In this document: one piece after another, positions 37,579 through 49,936 of the stretch
Layout of the letters: each line of letters begins with the position of its first letter
How positions within the stretch are numbered: the stretch's first letter is position 1
NCBI RefSeq assembly: GCF_900112285.1
Contig: NZ_FOKZ01000007.1
Span: 62,001 to 126,000, forward strand
DNA: 64,000 bases
Direction: 5' to 3'
From: Polaromonas sp. OV174
GTDB lineage: Bacteria; Pseudomonadota; Gammaproteobacteria; Burkholderiales; Burkholderiaceae_C
The notes under the pieces: generated by a model
Told to the model about the DNA's origin: nothing
The model's database searches: none
What the model saw: only the letters and a program-made list of their open reading frames with translations
Made by a program: the position numbers and the translations under genes

Positions 37579-38393
37579 GTGCGCCTCAGAATGACTTCAA
37601 GCACAAAGTGCGAACCCGCGTAACCCAGCAGCAGCAGGCCGGCGCCCAGGTAGAGCACCCGAGTCGCCTTGCGGCCGCGCCAGCCCAGGCGCGCGCGGCC
37701 TATCAGCAAGCCGGCGAAGACCAGCCAGGCCAGCACTGAAAACACCGTTTTGTGACTCCACTTCCAGGCCAGACCCGGGCCATAAAGCGTTTCGGCGAAC
37801 AGCCAGCCCACAGCCAAGGTGGCGGACAACAGCACAAAGCCGGCTTCCACAAAACGAAAGGTGAGGCGTTCCAGTGTCAGCAGCGGCACACCGGCATCGG
37901 TTTGCGTGGCCTGCCGCATCGAGCGTTCGGCCCGAATCATCAGCCAGCCGTGCACCACCGCCGCCGCAAACAGTCCGTATGAAGCGATGCCCAGTGCCCA
38001 GTGCAGCGGCAACCAGGGCGAAGCAATCATGTGGTAGCTGGTGCCCGGAAAAATCAGCGCCAAAATGACGGCGGCGCTGCCCAGGCCGGCCAGTGCCCAG
38101 TGTGCATGCAGCTGCGGAAACAGCCGGCGTTCAATCGCATAAACCGACAGCACCAGCCAGACGGTCATCGATAGTGCGGGGGCGAAACCAAAGCGCGGCG
38201 GCGTGCCCAGCAGGCCGTCCGCCAGGGTCAGCGCATGCAGCAGCCAGGCTGCCAGCAGCAGGCCGCGGATAGCGCGGGCGCCCAGTCGCTGAGTGGCCAG
38301 CGCCAGCACGGCATAGGCGATGGCGGCACCGGCTGCCGCCGCAAGACCCCACCAGGCGCTGAAAGCTAAAATGGAGGGTAGGAAGGATTTCAT
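37575..38393 (-). CDS. ypjD: Cytochrome c assembly (CcsA/HemX)-like membrane protein YpjD
   Basis: A 272-residue protein with about eight membrane segments. Conserved parts are WLPLHWALGIASYGLFAAAVVHGWLM, WKWSHKTVFSVLAWLVF and GYAGSHFVLEV. It belongs to the CcsA/YpjD family that neighbours ffh in many proteobacteria. The apparent ATG at 38393 and the first seven codons (MKSFLPS) fall inside domain VI of the adjoining group II intron, whose predicted 3' end is near 38371. The true N-terminus may therefore be supplied by the intron, or restored from an exon beyond 40840 by splicing. From residue 9 (LAFSAWWGL) onward it looks like a normal family member. Confidence 0.85.
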   Translation of the reverse strand: MKSFLPSILAFSAWWGLAAAAGAAIAYAVLALATQRLGARAIRGLLLAAWLLHALTLADGLLGTPPRFGFAPALSMTVWLVLSVYAIERRLFPQLHAHWALAGLGSAAVILALIFPGTSYHMIASPWLPLHWALGIASYGLFAAAVVHGWLMIRAERSMRQATQTDAGVPLLTLERLTFRFVEAGFVLLSATLAVGWLFAETLYGPGLAWKWSHKTVFSVLAWLVFAGLLIGRARLGWRGRKATRVLYLGAGLLLLGYAGSHFVLEVILRRT

Positions 38394-38415
38394 TGCTGAA
38401 ACCCCTCCCCCCTAA

Positions 38416-38449
38416 GAACCGTACGTGCGCCTTTCAACGCATACGGCTC
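38416..38449 (-). other. Group II intron domain V
   Basis: The minus strand reads GAGCCGTATGCG, TTGAAAGG, then CGCACGTACGGTTC: a 34-nt hairpin with the AGC catalytic triad, a GAAA terminal loop and the asymmetric bulge. This is the most conserved ribozyme part of group II introns and fixes the strand and 3' side of the element. Confidence 0.92.
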
Positions 38450-38510
38450 AAGCACAACCACTGGCTTGATAGATTTAACGAGCTGCATGGCTCTAGTCTA
38501 TCGCGCCAGA

Positions 38511-40232
38511 TTAAAGTCCCCGTGCAGGGACCGGCTTGGTTACCTCCAAACCTAGGGCGTGGACACGCACATGACATACTCGGTGGAGCAAAACCCTGTT
38601 GCTCAATGCGTCGCTTCCCCCCAACTGCCGATAAACGATATGGTGGTCGTCGCAGTCCTCGAGGTCATCGATTGGCACTTTGCACAGGGCACAGTCCCCG
38701 GTCTGACTCATCCACAGCCGCAAGCGTTGGGCGTCACGAATGACTTGCGACATCCGTTTTTCCCTCAGCTGTTCACCGTAAACGAGCCATTCTTTGTCAA
38801 AGGGGTTGTAAGCCCCCTTGATTTTCTTGTGTCGAACAATCGGTGTGTCCGCCAGCTTGATTAGAACCAGCGAATCCGACGTCTGATCACACTCGTTTGA
38901 ACTGGACATAAAGTCCCAGCGCCCGCGTGGGCGCTTCCAGTAGTGTTCCAACACCCACTTGGCGCTTTTTCGGGGATGGCGCCTGAGCCCCCAACGCATC
39001 AACCGCCAGTAGATCAGGTAGTCGAGCTTTGAGAAGGTAGCTTTTGCAACCACTCCTTTGTGATACGTTGCCCAACCCCGCAAAAGCGGATTCAGGCGAT
39101 TTATCAGCACGTCAGTGGGCACCGCAAGCGAAGTACTAATGATTTCCTTGACCTTGCCGTAGAACGCTTTCGCGTTTTTCTGGCTCGGTTTGATCAACAT
39201 TTTTTCTCCGTATTTTCGGAAATTCCATCCTAAGAAATCAAAGCCTTGCTCGATATGAACGACTCGTGTCTTCTCCTCCGATAGCACAAGTCCCCGCTCG
39301 CGCAGGAACTCAACCACCCAGGGTTTGACAATTGTTTCCAGCAGCACTTGCGAGCTGCCGGTCACAACGAAATCGTCGGCATACCGCACTAAATGAACTT
39401 TTGCTTTTGTGGCTTGACAGGCCCCCAGCTTGTGGCTGAGGTAATTGTGCAAACCAGTTTCCAGTCCGTTAAGCGTGATGTTAGCCAGTGTGGGCGAGAT
39501 GATGCCTCCTTGTGGGGTGCCCATCTCGGTGCGTGCGAAGTGTCCTTTGTCAACGACACCCGACTTCAACCACTGCTGCAGGATGCGCTTGTTCATGGAG
39601 ACCTTGCGCATCAGCCAGTCGTGATTGATGTGGTCGAAGAATCCCTTGATGTCTGCGTCGAGTACCCATTGGGCCGAAACCTTTTGAGACAAGCACACAA
39701 ACAACTGGCTGCGCGCATCGTGGGTTGATCGCTCTTTCCTGAATCCATAAGAGTTCGGGTCAGAGTTGCATTCCACGATGGGTTCCAGCCCGAGCAGATG
39801 TAGGGCCTGCATCGCCCGGTCAAACATGGTCGGGATGCCCAGAGGGCGTTCCTTTCCGTTTGATTTCGGGATGTAAACGCGCCTGAGCGGTGAGGCTCTG
39901 TAGCATCTACAGTTCAGTCGACACACCGCTTCCCATTTGCTCTCTGGCGTGTCCCATAGTTCGCGGTCGATGCCACTCGTCCGCTTCCCTTGGTTTGTCG
40001 TAACTTTCCTGACGGCCAATGCCTTGGCTTGCCAGGAACGAACAAGACTTCTCTGAAGTCGCGAGACTTTTCGATGATCCTGCTCTTTTTCTGCCTGCGC
40101 GATGCACATCTGCGCCCTCCCGACAAACTTCGCCACCAGACTCCAATCAATGGAGTGCCAGTTGCTGGGTTTGCCCGGAGACGCAGCATCTTTGTCGCGA
40201 ATGTTGCCATTCACTTCTGGGATGTTTTCCAT
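38511..40232 (-). CDS. ltrA: Group II intron reverse transcriptase/maturase with HNH endonuclease
   Basis: A 573-residue multifunctional protein. The RT domain runs from about residue 70 to 330, with SNGKERPLGIPTMFDRAMQAL, DADIKGFFDHI, GTPQGGIISPTLANI and the catalytic RYADDFVV. The maturase (X) domain follows with INRLNPLLRGWATYHKGV. The C-terminus is a DNA-binding/HNH endonuclease region with CALCKVPIDDLEDCDDHHIV and HRVCHVRVH. All expected catalytic residues are present and there is no frameshift. GGAGAAAG precedes the ATG at 40232. Confidence 0.94.
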   Translation of the reverse strand: MENIPEVNGNIRDKDAASPGKPSNWHSIDWSLVAKFVGRAQMCIAQAEKEQDHRKVSRLQRSLVRSWQAKALAVRKVTTNQGKRTSGIDRELWDTPESKWEAVCRLNCRCYRASPLRRVYIPKSNGKERPLGIPTMFDRAMQALHLLGLEPIVECNSDPNSYGFRKERSTHDARSQLFVCLSQKVSAQWVLDADIKGFFDHINHDWLMRKVSMNKRILQQWLKSGVVDKGHFARTEMGTPQGGIISPTLANITLNGLETGLHNYLSHKLGACQATKAKVHLVRYADDFVVTGSSQVLLETIVKPWVVEFLRERGLVLSEEKTRVVHIEQGFDFLGWNFRKYGEKMLIKPSQKNAKAFYGKVKEIISTSLAVPTDVLINRLNPLLRGWATYHKGVVAKATFSKLDYLIYWRLMRWGLRRHPRKSAKWVLEHYWKRPRGRWDFMSSSNECDQTSDSLVLIKLADTPIVRHKKIKGAYNPFDKEWLVYGEQLREKRMSQVIRDAQRLRLWMSQTGDCALCKVPIDDLEDCDDHHIVYRQLGGSDALSNRVLLHRVCHVRVHALGLEVTKPVPARGL

Positions 40233-40862
40233 ACTTTCTCCGGTTTGGTGAACCCAAAACGGAATGCGACCCACGAGGGGTATTGCACCCCGTAGGTCGT
40301 TTTGAAGTCCGCAGCGGCCTTGCGCCGTTGCACCTGTAGCAAGTCAGCCTGCTTTCACAGCAAGGTAAATTTTGAGCCTCTATGCCGTCCATTACAAACG
40401 GCCATTCGCTTTTTGCTACTTCCTCTGCCCCCTGCATCATGGCCGTTGCTTGCGCTTCGGTTGCCTGGCGACCCCTTGCGGAGACGTCAGGCGGTGCATG
40501 GGGTTTACCTCGTTTCCCAGCGTATCCACCCGGACGGCTATCCGGGCGATGGGGTTAGGGACGCTCTATCCGCCGCACGTGTTGGGGAACCCACTGCAGT
40601 CCATGACAAGCAGCGGCCTACGCGGTGCCTTTTGGCTACAGCTCCTCAGTTTGCACCGAGAGACAAGCGTTAGCTGTTTACTGTTAACGACGGTTTAGTC
40701 GAGCGTTCACATGTGTTTCCCGTACCCTTTACCTCAGCATTCCCGACAGTCTTGTTTATGTCGCCTGGGCAATCCTCACGGACTGCTTGGCCGCATGGGC
40801 TTGTAGCCCTTGCGCAGAATGTTTATCCGCAGCTTCGCACCCCGCAGTTACTTGCGACGCAC

Positions 40863-41290
40863 GTGCAGTTGAGGTCACTTCGTTCCGGAAGTGGTTTCAG
40901 TTAAGTAGAAACAAGACACGCTGAGTGGTGTCATTTATGAAGCGGGATAGAAAATTGTTTCACGGTGAAAAAATTCCTGCCAACCGAGAATCCTCACGAA
41001 TTTCGTAGCATATGCACAACAGAGATCGGGGCCAATGGCTCTGATTCCTATGCCTGGCTATCCCAATGGGACAACGAAGCTAGCTGAAATATTCCTATTT
41101 CAGGTCATTTTTCCGTTCGTTTCCCGAGGGAAACGCCATGCTCTCTCAGAGGGAAAGCTGCCTCATTACAATACTGGCTGACCCAGTAATGGACGACTTC
41201 GAGTCGCACCATGGCTACAGTTTAGCGCCTGGCCAAGTCTGTCTTGGCCTTTTCGCTCCCTTGCCGCGCCCCGTTTCAGGACCCTCACTC
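40863..41290 (+). other. 428-bp noncoding region with several hairpins before ffh
   Basis: No supported gene. Base composition is lower in GC than the flanks around 40900-41110. Visible structures: TTTCAC-G-GTGAAA (40958-40970); CTGAAATA-TTCC-TATTTCAG (41084-41103) with a nearby T-run; the palindrome GTTTCCCGAGGGAAAC (41119-41134); and the terminator-like hairpin at 41231-41253. It holds whatever remains of the native ypjD-ffh divergent promoter region. I searched by eye for the 4.5S RNA signature and did not find it. Confidence 0.5.
41231..41253 (+). terminator. Intrinsic-terminator-like hairpin in the ffh leader
   Basis: GGCCAAG and CTTGGCC (41231-41237 with 41243-41249) form a perfect 7-bp stem over a 5-base loop, followed by TTTT. 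It is only 38 bases before the ffh ATG. It would end transcription arriving from upstream, or act as an attenuator of ffh if its promoter is further up. Confidence 0.6.
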
Positions 41291-42759: not shown

Positions 42760-44718
42760 TCAGGCCGCTCTTAGCTGCGGCTTGGTGCGCCGGCTGGCGT
42801 GCAGCCAGGCCCGGCGCAGCACCGCCGGCGAACGGGTTTCCTCGGGAATCAAGAGGTAGTTGTGGGCCCGCATGGCGGCGCCCACGCCGACCTGGCTGGT
42901 CAGCACCGTCATGGGAATCGCCAGCAGCAGCGGCAGGCCGACCGGCAGCAGCCAGACCAGCGCGCTGGCATCTATCAGCGCAATGCCGGCGGCCAGCAGC
43001 GCGATCACGCCGCTCATGGGCGCGAGCTGCTGCAGCGCGTGCTTCCACGGCACGGCGGCGGCTTCACGCGGCGGGGACTTCCACTCCAGCTTCAGGCCGG
43101 TCATGGCCACCACCACAAACAGCGAATGCGCCAGCATGCGAATCGGCGCTTGCAGCAGGGCGATCAGGGTTTCCAGCAGGGCGCTGCGCAGCAGGCTGGC
43201 GGTGCCGCCATAGGATGCCTGCTGACGCTTGATCAGCACGGCGGTCAGGCCCAGAATGCGCGGCAAAAACAGCATGGACAGGGTCCAGGCCCAGAGCGAC
43301 GCCAACTCGCCGGGCAGCACGGCCCAGTCGCTCACCATGGGCGAGCCCGACAGCCACAGCGCGGTGCCCATGGTCATGAAGCACAGCCACAGCGGCGCCG
43401 ACAGGTAGGCCATGGCGCCGGTGGCGAACATGGAGCGGTGCACCGGGTGAATGCCGGGCTCGGCAATCAGGCGCGAGTTCTGCAGATTGCCCTGGCACCA
43501 GCGGCGGTCGCGCTGCAGCTCGGACAGCAGGTCGGGCGGCTGCTGCTCGTAGCTGCCGACCAGGTCGGCCACCAGCCAGACGTGGTAGCCGGCGCGGCGC
43601 ATCAGCGCGGCCTCGACAAAGTCGTGCGACATGATGCTGCCCGCCATGCCGCCCGTGCCCTTGATGCGGGCCAGTGCGCAATGCTGCATAAAGGGTTCAA
43701 TGCGGATGATGGCGTTGTGGCCCCAGTAATGCGACTCGCCCATTTGCCAGTACTGCATGCCCAGCGTGAAGAGACGGCCGGTGACGCGCGAGGCGAACTG
43801 CTGCGCCCGCGCATGCAGGGTGACGTGGCCTATGGCCTGGGTGGCGGTCTGGATGATGCCGGCCTTGGGGTTGGCCTCCATCAGCTTGACCATGCTCACC
43901 AGGCAGTCGCCGCTCATCACGCTGTCGGCGTCCAGCACCACCATGTAGTGGTAGTCCTTGCCCCAGCGGCGGCAAAAGTCGGCCACGTTGCCGGCCTTGC
44001 GGTCGCTGCGGCGTTTGCGCAGGCGGTAATAGACCTCGATCTGCGGCTGCTCCGGCTGGCTGGCCAGCTGGCTACGCAGCTCTTCCCAGGCCGCGCGCTC
44101 GGCCTGCTGGATCGCCGGGTCGTAGCTGTCGGACAGCACGTACACATCGAAGGCCTTGACGTGGCCGGTCAGCGCGACGGATTCACAGGTGGCGCGCAAA
44201 CCCGAAAACACCGTGCGCACATCTTCGTTGCAGATAGGCATGATGATGGCGGTGCGGGTGGACGGGTCCAGCGTGTGATGCTGCACCTTCTTGGCCGACA
44301 GCGTATGGGCATCGCCAAACAGCGTGACGTAAAAGCCCATCATGGCCGTCATGAAACCGGTCACCACCCAGCCCGACAGCAGGGCGAACAGGGCCAGCTG
44401 GCCGTATTTCAGCCAGGCGTTGTCGTAGTGGGGCTGCATGTCGGCAAACAGGCTGGTGGCCAGCGCGGTACTGATCAGGGTCAGCAGCAAGAACACCGCT
44501 CGGCGGCGCTTGGCGGCATATTGCCAGGGCGCCAGCGCTTGCGCCGGTGCGCGTGGCGGCGCTGCCGCAGCGCCCGGCCTGAGAAAAGGCAGCAGTGCGG
44601 CCGTGCCCAGGCTGTTCCAGAAACCGCGCCACGGGCGTGGTGCCATGGAGCCGCGCTGCACCGGCGGCGCGGTCAGCGCGTTGGGGTGACGTTCTTCGCG
44701 CAGCAAGCTGCGTGTCAT
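42760..44718 (-). CDS. mdoH: Periplasmic glucan glucosyltransferase
   Basis: MdoH (OpgH), 652 residues, an inner-membrane family 2 glycosyltransferase that makes the beta-1,2-glucan backbone of osmoregulated periplasmic glucans from UDP-glucose. The catalytic domain has AIIMPICNEDV, VLDADSVMSGD and the DRRWCQGN (QxxRW-type) motif. About seven to eight membrane segments flank it. It is shorter than the 847-residue E. coli enzyme, lacking much of the N-terminal region. The ATG at 44718 overlaps the mdoG stop by four bases; a much longer open frame upstream is antisense-like sequence across mdoG. Confidence 0.94.
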   Translation of the reverse strand: MTRSLLREERHPNALTAPPVQRGSMAPRPWRGFWNSLGTAALLPFLRPGAAAAPPRAPAQALAPWQYAAKRRRAVFLLLTLISTALATSLFADMQPHYDNAWLKYGQLALFALLSGWVVTGFMTAMMGFYVTLFGDAHTLSAKKVQHHTLDPSTRTAIIMPICNEDVRTVFSGLRATCESVALTGHVKAFDVYVLSDSYDPAIQQAERAAWEELRSQLASQPEQPQIEVYYRLRKRRSDRKAGNVADFCRRWGKDYHYMVVLDADSVMSGDCLVSMVKLMEANPKAGIIQTATQAIGHVTLHARAQQFASRVTGRLFTLGMQYWQMGESHYWGHNAIIRIEPFMQHCALARIKGTGGMAGSIMSHDFVEAALMRRAGYHVWLVADLVGSYEQQPPDLLSELQRDRRWCQGNLQNSRLIAEPGIHPVHRSMFATGAMAYLSAPLWLCFMTMGTALWLSGSPMVSDWAVLPGELASLWAWTLSMLFLPRILGLTAVLIKRQQASYGGTASLLRSALLETLIALLQAPIRMLAHSLFVVVAMTGLKLEWKSPPREAAAVPWKHALQQLAPMSGVIALLAAGIALIDASALVWLLPVGLPLLLAIPMTVLTSQVGVGAAMRAHNYLLIPEETRSPAVLRRAWLHASRRTKPQLRAA

Positions 44719-46250
44719 TGGGTAATCAGGTTGGTCCATGTTTCTGTCAGGGTGTGGGTGTCGTGTTGCAGGAAGGCGCGCAGTTCCACGGGCTCGCCGT
44801 TCAGTCGCTGTACGCGTAAATTCATGCGCCAGGCGCCGGTGGCCGGGTTGCGAAAGGCCAGGCTTTCCAGCACGCGGGCGTTGCTGCCGGCCGTCGTGAT
44901 GGCCTCGACCTTGGCGTCTGCCGGCAGGGCGTCCAGCGCCGGCCCGGCAAAGTCGATGGCAAACTGGACTTGCTGCTTGAGCTCGTCGGCGCCGAGCTTG
45001 GAATAACCGGTGCCGCGGCGCGACTGGGTGACCCAGCCGTTGGGCGGCAACTGCTGGTTTTTGCCCTGCCAGGCAATCTGGTAGGACAGCTCCAGCGACT
45101 CGCCGGGGGCCGGCATTTTTTCGGGCACCCAGTAGGCGGCCACGTTGTCGTGGGTTTCGTCGGGCGTGGCAAATTGCAGCAGCTCGACCCGACCGGCGCC
45201 AAAACCGCTGAGCGGCGTGACCCAGGCGCTGGGCCGCAGCTCGTAGCGCGCCTCGGTGTCTTCGTAGCTGGCAAAAGCCCGGTCGCGCTGCATCAGGCCA
45301 AAACCCTTGAGGCTTTTCATGCTGAACGACGTCACCAGCGGCGATGCCGGGTTTTGCAGCGGGCGCCACAGCCATTCGCCGCCGCCTTTGCCGTCATCGG
45401 TGGCGATCATCAGACCGTCCGAGTCGTGCACCTCGGGCCTAAAGTCGCCGGGCCTGGGCTGGTTCTCGCCAAAGAAAAACATGCTGGTCAGCGGTGCAAT
45501 GCCTAGCGTGGTGACCGGCTTGTCGGTCGGCCGCATATAAATGCGCGCACGGACTTCGGTCATGGTTTGCTCGCCCGGCTTGACGTCAAAGCGATAGGCT
45601 CCCGTCATGCGCTCCGAATCCATCAGGGCATAAATGGTCAGCGGGCCGCCTTCGACGGCGGGCTTTTCCAGCCAGAAGTCGGTGAAGCGCGGAAATTCTT
45701 CCTTGGCTGGGCCTGCCGTGTTCACGGCCAGGCCGCGCGCCGACAGGCCATAAAGCTGGCCGGCACCCAGGGCGCGGAAATAGCTGGCGCCCGAGAAAAC
45801 GATCAGCTCGTCCTTGTAAGTGGGCGAATTCAGGTTGCTGAAAGCGCGCACGCCGCCATAGCCAATGTCGCCCCAGGTTTTGGGCGACAGTTTGTTTTTG
45901 CCGAAGTCGAAGCTGGCCGGATCGTAGGGAGTGCGTTTGACGCCAGCGGACGTGATTTCATGGACGCGCACCGAGTCGCCATGGCGGCCGACGTGGAAAA
46001 AATTCACTTCGTAAGGCAGCTTGTCGGCGCGCCACAGCATGCCTTCCGGCTTGAAGCGGATGTCGCGGTAATCGTCGTACGCCATCCGGGCCAGCTCGGC
46101 CGGGACGGCATGGGGCGCTTCCTTGAATGGGGTCTGGGCACGCTGGCTGGCGAGTGCGGCCACGTCGTCAAGGCCGAAGGCATGGGCTTGGGCGGTCGTC
46201 AAGACAAGCGCCGCGGCGCAGGCCAGGGCGGCAAAACGCGCCGGTGGCAT
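44715..46250 (-). CDS. mdoG: Periplasmic glucan biosynthesis protein G
   Basis: MdoG (OpgG) is the periplasmic protein needed for branching and release of osmoregulated glucans. From the ATG at 46250 it has 511 residues, the same length as E. coli OpgG, and a compact signal peptide MPPARFAALACAAALVLTTA with cleavage near AHA-FGLDD. ATG codons at 46292 and nearby would add 14 residues but would coincide with the predicted sigma-54 transcription start, so the shorter form is preferred. Family segments: IGYGGVRAFSNLN, GASYFRALGAGQLYGLSARG and SMFFFGENQ. It heads an mdoGH operon. Confidence 0.93.
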   Translation of the reverse strand: MPPARFAALACAAALVLTTAQAHAFGLDDVAALASQRAQTPFKEAPHAVPAELARMAYDDYRDIRFKPEGMLWRADKLPYEVNFFHVGRHGDSVRVHEITSAGVKRTPYDPASFDFGKNKLSPKTWGDIGYGGVRAFSNLNSPTYKDELIVFSGASYFRALGAGQLYGLSARGLAVNTAGPAKEEFPRFTDFWLEKPAVEGGPLTIYALMDSERMTGAYRFDVKPGEQTMTEVRARIYMRPTDKPVTTLGIAPLTSMFFFGENQPRPGDFRPEVHDSDGLMIATDDGKGGGEWLWRPLQNPASPLVTSFSMKSLKGFGLMQRDRAFASYEDTEARYELRPSAWVTPLSGFGAGRVELLQFATPDETHDNVAAYWVPEKMPAPGESLELSYQIAWQGKNQQLPPNGWVTQSRRGTGYSKLGADELKQQVQFAIDFAGPALDALPADAKVEAITTAGSNARVLESLAFRNPATGAWRMNLRVQRLNGEPVELRAFLQHDTHTLTETWTNLITQ

Positions 46251-46304
46251 CAAGCCGCTGGCGCGTTGAGAAAGACCGAAAAAAGCTTGCATCAACTGAC
46301 TAGG

Positions 46305-46319
46305 GCAAACCCCATGCCA
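46305..46319 (-). promoter_or_regulatory. Sigma-54 promoter of mdoGH
   Basis: On the minus strand TGGCATGGGGTTTGC carries the -24 GG and -12 GC with exactly ten bases between them. It matches the consensus TGGCAC-N5-TTGC at eight of nine fixed bases. The transcription start would be near 46293. It has an IHF site and a GlrR box upstream in the usual enhancer arrangement. Confidence 0.75.
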
Positions 46320-46338
46320 GTTTGAATAAACCTTTTTA

Positions 46339-46351
46339 AATCAACAGCTTG
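46339..46351. promoter_or_regulatory. IHF-binding site between the GlrR box and the sigma-54 promoter
   Basis: AATCAACAGCTTG fits the IHF consensus WATCAANNNNTTR at every defined position. It lies next to a TTTTTAAA tract, between the promoter (46305-46319) and the activator palindrome (46412-46429), where a bend would bring activator and polymerase together. Confidence 0.65.
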
Positions 46352-46411
46352 CGCGCCTCAAAAAATTCTTGCCGGAAATCCATCGGGAAATGGCCGGCAA
46401 ATCCGGAATTT

Positions 46412-46429
46412 TGTCGCTGTACAGCGACA
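46412..46429. promoter_or_regulatory. GlrR-binding site (TGTC-N10-GACA)
   Basis: A perfect 20-bp palindrome spans 46411-46430, TTGTCGCTGTACAGCGACAA. It contains the TGTC-N10-GACA motif known for GlrR (YfhA/QseF) in enterobacteria. Its centre is about 127 bases upstream of the predicted mdoG start site. The glrR gene ends 32 bases away. It might alternatively be a transcript hairpin at the glrR 3' end, but no T-run follows. Confidence 0.75.
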
Positions 46430-46462
46430 AGATGCGGGGTAAGGGAAAAAATTCCTTATAAA

Positions 46463-47878
46463 TCAAGCACTTGGCTTGTCGCCTGAAAGCGACTCCTGGG
46501 GCGGCGCAACGCCATCAGACTTGAAGAGGCCGGGGCTCAGTCCGTGCTTTTGCATCAGGCGATAGAACTCGGTGCGGTTGCGATCGGCCAGGCGGGCCGC
46601 GTCGGCCACATTGCCGTCGGTCAGCTTGAGCAAGCCGACCAGGTAGTCGCGCTCGAAACGCTGCTTGGCCTCGGCGAAAGTGAGCACCGGCACGCTGGGA
46701 GAGCGCAGCGCGCGCTGCACCAGCGCCAGCGGCACCAGCGGCGTGGTGGAAAGGGCGCAAACCTGCTCCACCACGTTGTGGAGCTGGCGCACATTGCCGG
46801 GCCAGGCCGCGGTGCTCAGGGCTTTCAGCGCTTCGGGAGCAAAGCCACTCAGGCGCTTGCCGTATTTGCTGGCCAGCTTGAGCAGGAAATGGTTGGCCAG
46901 CAAGGGAATGTCTTCGCGGCGCTCGGACAGCGGCGGCAAGGTCAGCGTGACGACGTTGAGGCGGTAGTACAGATCGGCGCGAAACTGGCCCTCGGCCATG
47001 GCCGCGTCCAGGTCGCTGTGGGTGGCCGAAATAATGCGCACATCCACGGCGATCGACTGGCTGGCGCCGACCGGCCTGACCTCGCGCTCCTGCAACACGC
47101 GCAAAAGCTTGACCTGCAGCGCCGGCGGCATGTCGCCGATTTCATCGAGCAGCAAGGTGCCGCCGTCGGCCGCCTGGAACAGGCCTTTGCGATTGCTCGC
47201 GGCATCGGTGAAGGCGCCCTTGACATGGCCGAACAGCTCGGACTCCAGCAAGGCCTCGGGAATGGCGCCGCAGTTCACCGCAATAAAGGGTTTGCCGGCG
47301 CGTGCGCTGGCCAGGTGAATCGCCTGGGCCAGCATCTCCTTGCCGGTGCCGCTTTCGCCGCGCAGCAGTACGCTGGCGTCGGAGTGCGCCACCATGCGGG
47401 CTTCGGCCAGGGTTTCGGCCATGCGGCTGGAGCGGCTGATGATCTGGCTTTGCCAGGCCTCGGGGCTGCCGCGCTGGGGCGTATGGGCGGGCGCGCTTAG
47501 GGCCAGCGCCTGGGCGATCTTTTCCAGCAGGCTTTTGCCGTCGAAAGGCTTGGTTAGGTAGGTGAAGACGCCGCGTTCGGTTGCTTCGACCGCATCGGGA
47601 ATGGTGCCGTGCGCGGTCAGCAAAATCACCGGCAGTGAAGGGTGCTGGGCGCGAATCTCGTCAAACAGCGCCAGCCCGTCCTTGCCGGGCAGCTGCACGT
47701 CGCTGAGCACCAGTTGCGGTCGCTCGATATGCAGCTGGGTCAGTGCCACTTCGGCCGAGGTGACGGCCGTGACGCGGTAACCCGCCGCCGTGAGCCGCAT
47801 GGTCAGCAGCCGCAGCATGTCGGCGTCGTCGTCAACCACCAGCAGGTGGGGCGCGGATGGCAGGGAAGCGGTGCTCAT
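46463..47878 (-). CDS. glrR: Sigma-54-dependent response regulator GlrR (QseF)
   Basis: A 471-residue NtrC-family regulator. The receiver has LLVVDDDAD, phospho-acceptor Asp in VLSDVQLPG and [22 protein letters not shown], a segment nearly identical to E. coli GlrR. The AAA+ domain has GESGTGKE and [13 protein letters not shown], so the sigma-54 loop reads GAFTDA, not GAFTGA. The DNA-binding helix-turn-helix [20 protein letters not shown] closely follows the E. coli one, so the same TGTC-N10-GACA target is expected. The start overlaps the lipoprotein gene by four bases (ATGA). Confidence 0.93.
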
Positions 47879-48531
47879 GGCGTGGCGGGGCGGGTGCGTC
47901 TGGCGGGCGCCGGCGCTGAGGCGGCGGGGCGGCTGGTCAGGCTGCGCTCTATCGCCTTGAGCGCCTCCAGCCTGTCATTGGTCTGATCCAGCCGGCGCTG
48001 CAACTCGCGCAACTGCTGGGCTTGTTTGTCCAGCTGCTCCTCCAGGCGGCGTTGCTCGCCGTAGCGCGCGGCCAGCAGGCGGGCCAGCGGATGCAAGGCC
48101 TGGGCTTCGGGATTGGCCAGCAGACGGGTCAGCAGTTCCTGGGCCCGTATCAGCTCTGGTAACTGGCGCAGCTGGCTCAAGGCCAGCGCCAGTTGCAGCT
48201 GAGCGGTCGGGCTGGTTGGGCTGGTGGAAGCCTCGCCCAGCCGCGCTACTTCCTGGTTGATGTCAGCGGCTGGCAGCTGACGCAGCCGGTCCGCGTAGGC
48301 CAGCATGCGCTCGGCGGCGTCCTTGGTCGGCGTTTCGGCCTGGCTGGGCTGGGCCGGCCCGGCGCGATCGGCCAGGACCGGGGCTGGTGCCGCCGCCCGA
48401 CCCACCGCGGCTTCGGCGTGGCTGGACGGGCCGGCGCTACAGGCGCTGAGCACCGCTGCGGCCAGCGACAGCAGCGACGCCAGCAGGCCGGTACGGGCAA
48501 GGCGGCTTAAACAATCAGGATTTGAAAACAT
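47875..48531 (-). CDS. QseG-like lipoprotein of the GlrK-GlrR system
   Basis: A 218-residue lipoprotein with signal peptide and lipobox LSAC (Cys31), an Ala/Pro-rich linker, and a C-terminal coiled coil (EEQLDKQAQQLRELQRRLDQ). Its place between glrK and glrR is that of QseG, an outer-membrane lipoprotein that stimulates the GlrK kinase in enterobacteria. Sequence identity to QseG is not evident by eye, so the name rests on synteny and architecture. It overlaps glrK by 17 bases and glrR by four. Confidence 0.75.
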   Translation of the reverse strand: MFSNPDCLSRLARTGLLASLLSLAAAVLSACSAGPSSHAEAAVGRAAAPAPVLADRAGPAQPSQAETPTKDAAERMLAYADRLRQLPAADINQEVARLGEASTSPTSPTAQLQLALALSQLRQLPELIRAQELLTRLLANPEAQALHPLARLLAARYGEQRRLEEQLDKQAQQLRELQRRLDQTNDRLEALKAIERSLTSRPAASAPAPARRTRPATP

Positions 48532-49936
48532 GGGGAAACTCGATTCTGAAATGTGCGCCCGACTCGCCAGGCAGCAGTTCTATGCGTCCGCCGTGCGCGG
48601 CGATGTATTCGTGGACTATGGACAGGCCTATGCCGCTGCCGCGCGCCACGTCGCCGGGCTGGCGTTCGCCGCGGTAAAAGGGCTCGAAGATGCGCTCCCT
48701 GTCGGCCGGCGCCACGCCAACGCCCTGGTCCTGGATGTCCAGGCGCGCCAGTCCGGGCTGCTCGCTCAGGCTCAGGTGTATCACGCCCTTGAGCGGCGAG
48801 TAGCGGATCGCATTGGACAGCAGATTGGCCAGCGCCGTGCCGATTTTCTCGGGATCGACTTCCATCTTGAGTGGCTCGCCGACGATGCTGAGCGACAGCT
48901 CGCGTGCGCGCCATTGCAGGCGTTGCGCGTCCACCTGTTCTTCTATGAGTTGCAGCAGATCGACATTTTGCCGGCGCAGCTGGCGGGCCTCGAAAGCCGC
49001 CGTGTTGAAACGCAGCAGGTCTTCAATCTGGCCTTGCAGCACAACGGTGTTGTGACGCAGGATTTGCGCGATTTCACGCTGGTCCGGGCTGAGGCTGCCG
49101 GCCACGCCATCTTCCAGCAGCGACACGCCTTCGCGCAGCGAGGCCAGCGGGGTTTTCAATTCGTGAGAGATGTGGCGCAGAAAACGCGACTTGTCGGCAT
49201 CGAGCTCGACCAGCCGCAGCCGCAGCCAGTTCAGGCGTTGCCCGACCAGCGCCAGATCGGCCGGCCCCTGAATCGCGATCACCTGATCGAGCCGGTTTTC
49301 GCCCAGGCCGACGATGGCATTTTCCAGGCGCTTGAGCGGCAGGGTGAACCAGATGCCAAAGGCCAGCGCCATGGCCACGGCCAGGACGATGGCCCAGGTC
49401 ACCTGTTGCGCCAGTTGCTGGCGACTGGCTTCCAGCTTGTCTTGCAGCGACTGGTTGCGCTGCTGTATGGTTTGCTGCGCCTGTAACGCGATGGCGGTGT
49501 TGATGCCCTCGAGCTCACGAAAGGCCTGCGCCAGCTGGCGCTCCCGCTCCAGCGCGGTCGCGGACGGGCCGGTCAGCAGCTTGTCCATGGTTTGCAGGTG
49601 GGCGCGCCACTGCCGGGCCCTGGCACTGGAAATGCCTTCCTGCGTCAGGCGGCCCAGAAGGTTGAGGCTTTCCTTGGCTTCGTCCCTGAAGTGTTCGCGC
49701 AGGATGCGGTCGTCCAGCACCACCGACTGCCGTGCGGTGCGTTCCATGGACAGGCTGCGCTCGCTCAGCGACTGGGCCGCGCCGCTGAGCTCCAGGGCGC
49801 GGGCCGCGTTGTCACGGCTTTGCAGCGTCAGGTCTTCCAGGGTGAACAGGGCGCGCAGCGAGGCCGCGCCCAGTAGGGCGGCAATCAGCAAAAACGCGAT
49901 GACGAGAAGCTGCCGGAACGAAAATCGCTGCAGCAT
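48515..49936 (-). CDS. glrK: Sensor histidine kinase GlrK (QseE)
   Basis: A 473-residue kinase with two membrane helices (about residues 10-30 and 182-205) flanking a helical periplasmic domain. A short HAMP-like region follows, then the H-box HISHELKTPLASLREGV. ATP-binding motifs are LANLLSNAIRYSP, DQGVGVAPADRERIFEPFYRG and GSGIGLSIVHEY. The ATG at 49936 is preferred; an open frame upstream overlaps miaB. It starts 23 bases after the miaB stop, so it may be co-transcribed with miaB. Confidence 0.92.
   Translation of the reverse strand: MLQRFSFRQLLVIAFLLIAALLGAASLRALFTLEDLTLQSRDNAARALELSGAAQSLSERSLSMERTARQSVVLDDRILREHFRDEAKESLNLLGRLTQEGISSARARQWRAHLQTMDKLLTGPSATALERERQLAQAFRELEGINTAIALQAQQTIQQRNQSLQDKLEASRQQLAQQVTWAIVLAVAMALAFGIWFTLPLKRLENAIVGLGENRLDQVIAIQGPADLALVGQRLNWLRLRLVELDADKSRFLRHISHELKTPLASLREGVSLLEDGVAGSLSPDQREIAQILRHNTVVLQGQIEDLLRFNTAAFEARQLRRQNVDLLQLIEEQVDAQRLQWRARELSLSIVGEPLKMEVDPEKIGTALANLLSNAIRYSPLKGVIHLSLSEQPGLARLDIQDQGVGVAPADRERIFEPFYRGERQPGDVARGSGIGLSIVHEYIAAHGGRIELLPGESGAHFRIEFPHVFKS

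Follow-up and report, generated by a model that had tools for sequence, protein, structure and literature searches.

How the synthesis of periplasmic glucans might come under an envelope-sensing system is the question raised by a locus of Polaromonas sp. OV174, in which the genes opgG and opgH (also named mdoG and mdoH) lie behind a gene for a GlrR-type activator of sigma-54 RNA polymerase. All coordinates refer to the window, that is, the whole stretch of 64,000 nucleotides that was analysed. Along the direction of transcription the locus begins with a sensor histidine kinase in the GlrK position (48515..49936, minus strand), recognised by its HisKA and HATPase_c domains and by gene order. 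Its top NCBIfam model is CreC, no GlrK model gives a match, and it shares 34% identity with E. coli GlrK over the aligned part. A small lipoprotein (47875..48531, minus strand) follows, placed by its position and by weak scores that miss the thresholds of both Pfam (YfhG, 20.1 bits, cut-off 27) and NCBIfam (QseG, 22.2 bits, cut-off 234). Next come glrR, opgG (44715..46292; MdoG domain, 591.7 bits) and opgH (42760..44781, with the ORF start set at 44781; NCBIfam MdoH, 1266 bits, cut-off 829). All five genes are on the minus strand, glrR and opgG are separated by 170 bp, and the order of kinase, lipoprotein and activator is that of glrK-qseG-glrR in E. coli. The first-pass annotation had described a kinase, a QseG-like lipoprotein and glrR in this order on one strand; order and strand hold, while the likeness of the lipoprotein to QseG is only a weak one. 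Elsewhere in the window, a group II intron on the minus strand (38373-40894) is represented by two Rfam matches and a reverse transcriptase-like ORF at 38511-40274.

The glrR gene (46463..47878, minus strand) encodes a protein with Response_reg and Sigma54_activat domains whose top NCBIfam model is GlrR, at 601 bits. This is under the equivalog cut-off of 763, and the protein is therefore termed GlrR-type, its orthology being assigned by gene order and similarity and not by the equivalog rule. It is 57% identical to E. coli GlrR over the aligned part, and the closest GlrR sequences are those of Polaromonas. The recognition helix is almost identical to that of E. coli, in agreement with what had been noted at first. 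The genome encodes the other components that such a system would use, with one gene for RpoN and four for proteins of the HU/IHF family. The loop contacting sigma-54 reads GAFTDA in the window's protein and GAFTGA in E. coli. Of 91 opg-linked GlrRs, 82 have GAFTDA, 8 have GAFTGA and one has GSFTGA, and the nine exceptions to GAFTDA all belong to Sphaerotilaceae. This loop may be a reason for caution about the predicted activation of sigma-54 by GlrR.

The glrR-opgG gap has the appearance of a GlrR-type sigma-54 enhancer and promoter. According to the accessible part of a published account, upstream activating sites (UAS) of QseF/GlrR have the form TGTN12ACA (PMC6075780). The first such site in the window, UAS1 (TTGTCGCTGTACAGCGACAA, 46411..46430), contains an exact TGTC-N10-GACA at 46412-46429. 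The second, UAS2 (46476..46495, minus strand; TTGTCGCCTGAAAGCGACTC on the plus strand), lies within the final codons of glrR and has one imperfect arm, with a single mismatch in TGTC-N10-GACA. Two IHF sites are recognised by consensus match, both complete matches to WATCAANNNNTTR on the plus strand: IHF1 (AATCAACAGCTTG, 46339..46351) and IHF2 (AATCAAGCACTTG, 46461..46473), the latter spanning the glrR stop codon between UAS2 and UAS1. The sigma-54 promoter (TGGCATGGGGTTTGC, 46305..46319, minus strand) carries the -24/-12 elements as GG-N10-GC. Along transcription the order is thus UAS2, IHF2, UAS1, IHF1, sigma-54 promoter and opgG. UAS1, IHF1 and the promoter had already been reported in the first-pass annotation, exactly and in the right order upstream of opgG, but UAS2, IHF2 and the position of the opgG start codon at the expected transcription start had been overlooked.

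In that annotation UAS1 was also described as a perfect 20-bp palindrome. The perfect palindromy is partly accidental, the inner bases being mostly unpaired in relatives. A palindrome of this kind, just behind the glrR stop codon, could also be read as a glrR terminator or another RNA hairpin. Against this, all 80 loci have GTCG/CGAC at positions 3-6 of the arms and compensated changes are absent, which, together with the mostly unpaired inner bases, argues for a site bound by protein and not for an RNA stem. Furthermore, the palindrome is followed by A and not by T on the transcribed strand, and it keeps a fixed spacing to the promoter. For want of compensation in the arms and of a T run behind them, the terminator or hairpin reading was set aside as extremely improbable.

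The combination of sites is rare in the genome. TGTC-N10-GACA alone occurs 59 times in 4.53 Mb, compared with 35 times for a reversed control. The scan proposed at the outset, for this motif near GG-N10-GC, found the motif followed at 66-96 bp by a sigma-54-like site only once genome-wide, at the present locus (control 0), and no instance with a gap of 97-127 bp. With exact sites, a wider GlrR regulon in this genome is accordingly limited to the opgG locus, and none of the strict TGTC-N10-GACA sites listed for this contig lies at the start of glrK, as GlrR control of that gene would have it. Across the family, the strict composite was present in 53 of 250 genomes, and the reversed control gave 7 matches. 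Thirty of 59 composite places were examined: 12 lay just behind a GlrR gene, with opgG or opgH next in 10 of these, and 18 lay elsewhere, which makes the composite alone an unsafe predictor of targets.

Non-conservation of the sites where glrR adjoins mdoG had been named beforehand as the outcome speaking against the proposal; the aligned gaps show co-conservation instead. From 91 glrR-to-opg gaps, removal of near-copies (>95% over 210 nt) left 82, each tested with the last 60 nt of glrR and against dinucleotide shuffles (n=16,400). TGTC-N10-GACA is present in 79 of the 82 and in 26 of the 16,400 shuffles. The strict composite of GlrR-type site and sigma-54 promoter is present in 72 and missing in 10, with none in the shuffles. 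Because the loci share ancestry, the 82 gaps do not amount to 82 independent trials. For IHF1, 54 of 80 spacers contain a complete match where 0.8 would be expected, and its distance to the promoter is 31-32 bp in 74 of the 80. IHF2 is complete in 50 of 79 loci, the shuffles predicting 0.2. A UAS2 was called, by a fixed match threshold and not against shuffles, in 80 of the 82 gaps, and 71 of these 80 have it 65-69 bp above UAS1. Among the loci that share the most frequent spacing (n=38), the columns of the sigma-54 site (taken as the best-scoring site in each of the 82 gaps) carry 1.82 bits of information on average, those of UAS1 1.36 and those of UAS2 1.01, compared with 0.65 for the spacer and 0.47 between the UASs.

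The distance from the start of UAS1 to the promoter is 111-114 bp in 67 of the 82 gaps, 122-123 bp in 6 and 104 bp in 1; rarer spacings are 94-95 bp (2/82) and 81-83 bp (4/82). These steps are near whole helical turns. Two of the 82 gaps, L050 and L059, have no UAS 75-125 bp from the promoter. The UAS, IHF and sigma-54 sites stand at fixed spacing in Polaromonas, Variovorax, Hydrogenophaga, Ramlibacter, Pseudorhodoferax and Xenophilus, and loci of Acidovorax and of the Rubrivivax/Roseateles type keep them with shifted spacing or one mismatch.

Gene linkage bears on which activator would act here. Several GlrR-like sigma-54 activators are encoded in the genome (7 matches, E up to 1e-60), and one of these might work the opgG promoter in place of GlrR. 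This is very unlikely: UAS1 fits the published QseF/GlrR form and the layout of E. coli glmY, and glrR adjoins the opg genes in most loci examined. In named genomes opgG or opgH lies directly behind glrR in 61 of the 80 best GlrR loci, a proportion that is no natural frequency because those loci were chosen by similarity, and in 29 of 30 loci of the whole-genome set (window included), the thirtieth, L109, being on a contig that ends inside opgH. The co-conserved sites and the glmY-like layout together support the original prediction, and control of opgGH by GlrR, IHF and sigma-54 is, on this sequence evidence, highly probable.

The position of the opgG start codon adds a second prediction. The A of the ATG (46290..46292, minus strand), at 46292, lies 13 nt after the C of the -12 GC (46305) and coincides with the predicted transcription start; E. 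coli glmY, too, has its annotated +1 at 13 nt from its GC. The mechanical ORF caller begins opgG at a TTG at 46295, the ATG at 46292 being the likelier start. Of the 82 loci, 77 have an ATG 12-15 nt behind the -12 GC, 67 of them at exactly 13 nt, and the five loci without one (L050, L054, L057, L062 and L073) are all Sphaerotilaceae. A Shine-Dalgarno-like tetramer 4-14 nt before the promoter-proximal ATG is absent in 73 of the 77. With an AUG at the expected start and no Shine-Dalgarno sequence, a leaderless sigma-54 transcript is predicted, and the opgGH mRNA probably begins at its start codon. The lineage f43 opgH genes have their ATG 13, 13 and 14 nt after the GC, while the f35 genes do not fit; other GlrR-linked targets with a clear start begin 37-64 nt after the GC (the starts of L067 and L069 are uncertain).

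Two alternatives concern this start region. In the first, most opgGH expression would stem from a different promoter, such as an overlapping sigma-70 promoter like the one described at glmY, or from read-through out of glrR, with GlrR only contributing to it, or the main product of the sigma-54 promoter would be a short RNA. The location of opgGH on the glrR strand, 170 bp behind it, would permit this. However, the missing Shine-Dalgarno-like tetramer in 73 of 77 loci leaves a longer leader without obvious benefit for translation, and Rfam gives no gathering-score match in the loci of four relatives, searched in e-value mode, nor near the promoter in the window, so that we consider this set of explanations unlikely. 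Three sub-threshold Rfam matches in the relatives' loci are far from the promoter, and a GlmY-like RNA at the opgG promoter was rejected as a candidate, a gathering-score match being absent near this promoter in the window and from the loci of the four relatives.

In the second, the promoter is a true one, but translation of opgG begins at a later start codon and the mRNA is then not leaderless. The window's opgG does contain a second in-frame ATG 14 codons on, ahead of the signal-peptide core. In L058, L061 and L070, on the other hand, an ordinary signal peptide starts right at the promoter-proximal ATG, which disfavours a downstream start as the general rule, and the same ATG is kept ahead of three different ORFs. 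We give this reading, too, a low probability and retain the promoter-proximal start. The ORF behind that ATG in the 77 loci is opgG in 49, opgH in 9 (including L109) and, in 18, an ORF of 66-70 aa followed by opgH; in L053 it has just 21 codons.

In loci of Variovorax and its kin that have no opgG there, this conserved ORF of 66-70 aa (about 67 aa) occupies the interval from the GlrR-type promoter to opgH and uses the promoter-proximal ATG as its start. L021:5562-5765 is one example, and 17 further loci have it at the corresponding position. Eighty-two database homologues were found, none with a Pfam domain. In 13 copies of equal length, changes are most frequent at third codon positions (2007, compared with 1273 and 1132 at the others), and codons with a single change comprise 1058 synonymous and 711 non-synonymous cases.

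Beyond the opg-linked loci, the enhancer module appears to stay while the output gene changes in other Betaproteobacteria. GlrR loci in which neither opgG nor opgH comes next number 39. In 18 of them a strict UAS is followed at 60-200 bp by a sigma-54-like site, counted over the whole retrieved stretch. The genes that flank glrR or glrK in these non-opg lineages encode BON-domain, EF-hand plus BON, and glycine-zipper proteins. Pfam found no match for 2 of 10 neighbour proteins in one set and for 1 of 7 in another (besides the Variovorax ORF). In L067, L068 and L071 (Thauera and kin) a UAS and sigma-54 site precede a bactofilin gene divergent from glrK, the bactofilin assignment coming from a Pfam run on one copy, L068.

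The opg genes themselves occur behind GlrR-type sites in more than one arrangement. In lineage f43, opgH comes next after glrR and is preceded by two UASs and a sigma-54-like site; glrK is behind opgH in two genomes and convergent in the third. In lineage f35, UASs and a sigma-54-like site that fits less well (TGGCC) precede opgH; this gene is divergent from glrK in G094, and the stretch of G387 examined has no glrK. A GlrR tree of 66 rows places the opg-linked Comamonadaceae, Sphaerotilaceae and f43 rows in one group (99/74, not starred), which includes one row, L158, without opg genes (lost or lacking). A starred branch in another part of the tree holds the f35 rows, and the opg label needs three changes, which suggests, without proving, separate origins of the linkage of opg genes to GlrR.

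Where opgG lies away from glrR, in other families, no module was found in 9 of 11 testable loci. In another distant case, L191 (G071, the single genome of its family), a UAS-like site is followed 162 bp downstream by TGGCACCATTTTTGC near the gene start, and this opgG is a possible target of GlrR in trans. L197 has a weak module candidate before an opgG distant from glrR, the L195 sequence is incomplete, and G390 (f38) carries a candidate module before opgH. Taken more widely, we lean towards a reading in which the UAS-IHF-UAS-IHF-promoter arrangement has been kept across proteobacteria with its outputs exchanged, these being the glmY RNA, BON proteins, glycine-zipper envelope proteins, bactofilin and glucan synthesis; where glucans are the output, the promoter would have become fused to the start codon, making expression dependent on leaderless translation.

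In the mechanism that we infer, from the signal and the phosphorylation and binding of GlrR to the dependence on RpoN, the 5' end of the RNA and the effect on glucans, the steps beyond the DNA sites follow the known system of E. coli. An envelope signal would act through the lipoprotein and GlrK. Phosphorylated GlrR would then occupy UAS1 and UAS2, about 65 bp or six helical turns apart, and IHF would bend the DNA twice, between the UASs and between UAS1 and the promoter. The AAA+ domain of GlrR would open the sigma-54 polymerase complex, and transcription would start from the A of the opgG ATG, some 13 nt after the -12 GC. An mRNA that begins on this A is by that fact leaderless, and its translation would lead to periplasmic glucan synthesis.

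Control by GlrR, IHF and sigma-54 is, as a kind, already known. The first-pass annotation knew of no description of a GlrR-mdoGH link, and our literature search, made on titles and abstract openings with few subscription papers, concurs in that it found nothing linking glrR/qseF or RpoN to the regulation of opgG/mdoG. Nor did a search mainly of the same kind find a description of opg genes as the output, of how widely this occurs, of outputs being exchanged or of the leaderless start, and it turned up no mapped transcription starts for these genera. For GlrR beyond the enterobacteria, the locus offers a predicted output. It leads to the prediction that the synthesis of periplasmic glucans, a process mostly treated as osmoregulated, is under sigma-54 and envelope-sensing control in many soil and water bacteria and, if this is true, would hinge on envelope sensing and leaderless translation. 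In addition, the fusion of a sigma-54 promoter to a start codon becomes testable, and the system may provide a clear case of an intact enhancer with an exchanged target gene.

Among known systems the closest is the E. coli glmY promoter, which is activated by QseF/GlrR with IHF and sigma-54 (PMC6075780, accessible part). Both have the order UAS2-IHF2-UAS1-IHF1-sigma-54 site, with distances that agree to within 5 bp and a start 13 nt after the GC. The glmY UASs lie 107, 170 and 203 bp before the sigma-54 site, those of the window 110 and 175 bp, E. coli thus carrying a third UAS where the window has two. The IHF matches are at 31 and 150 bp in E. coli (8/9 letters in the opposite orientation, and 9/9, respectively) and at 32 and 154 bp in the window. 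The outputs differ: at glmY it is a small RNA from a promoter upstream of glrK, whereas in Polaromonas it is opgGH downstream of glrR. The QseF-activated sigma-54 promoter P2 of E. coli rpoE (PMC6075780, same part) likewise serves an envelope-related output of GlrR/QseF, but rpoE encodes a regulator and opgGH encode enzymes. E. coli opgGH are the same gene pair with the same class of product as in the window, and their 393-bp opgC-opgG gap contains no TGTC-N10-GACA or TGTN12ACA and only a non-consensus GG-N10-GC. The BiofilmReg operon of Burkholderia contaminans was discarded as a parallel, belonging to a different two-component system as far as the accessible part of its report describes it (PMC5192318). 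For the leaderless start, a comparison is given by Sinorhizobium meliloti, in which 171 leaderless mRNAs were mapped (PMC3616915). These start on the first base of the AUG, as predicted here, and the accessible part of that report states no link to RpoN. The S. meliloti starts are mapped ones, whereas the Polaromonas-type start is a predicted one, bound to a single sigma-54 promoter across many genera.
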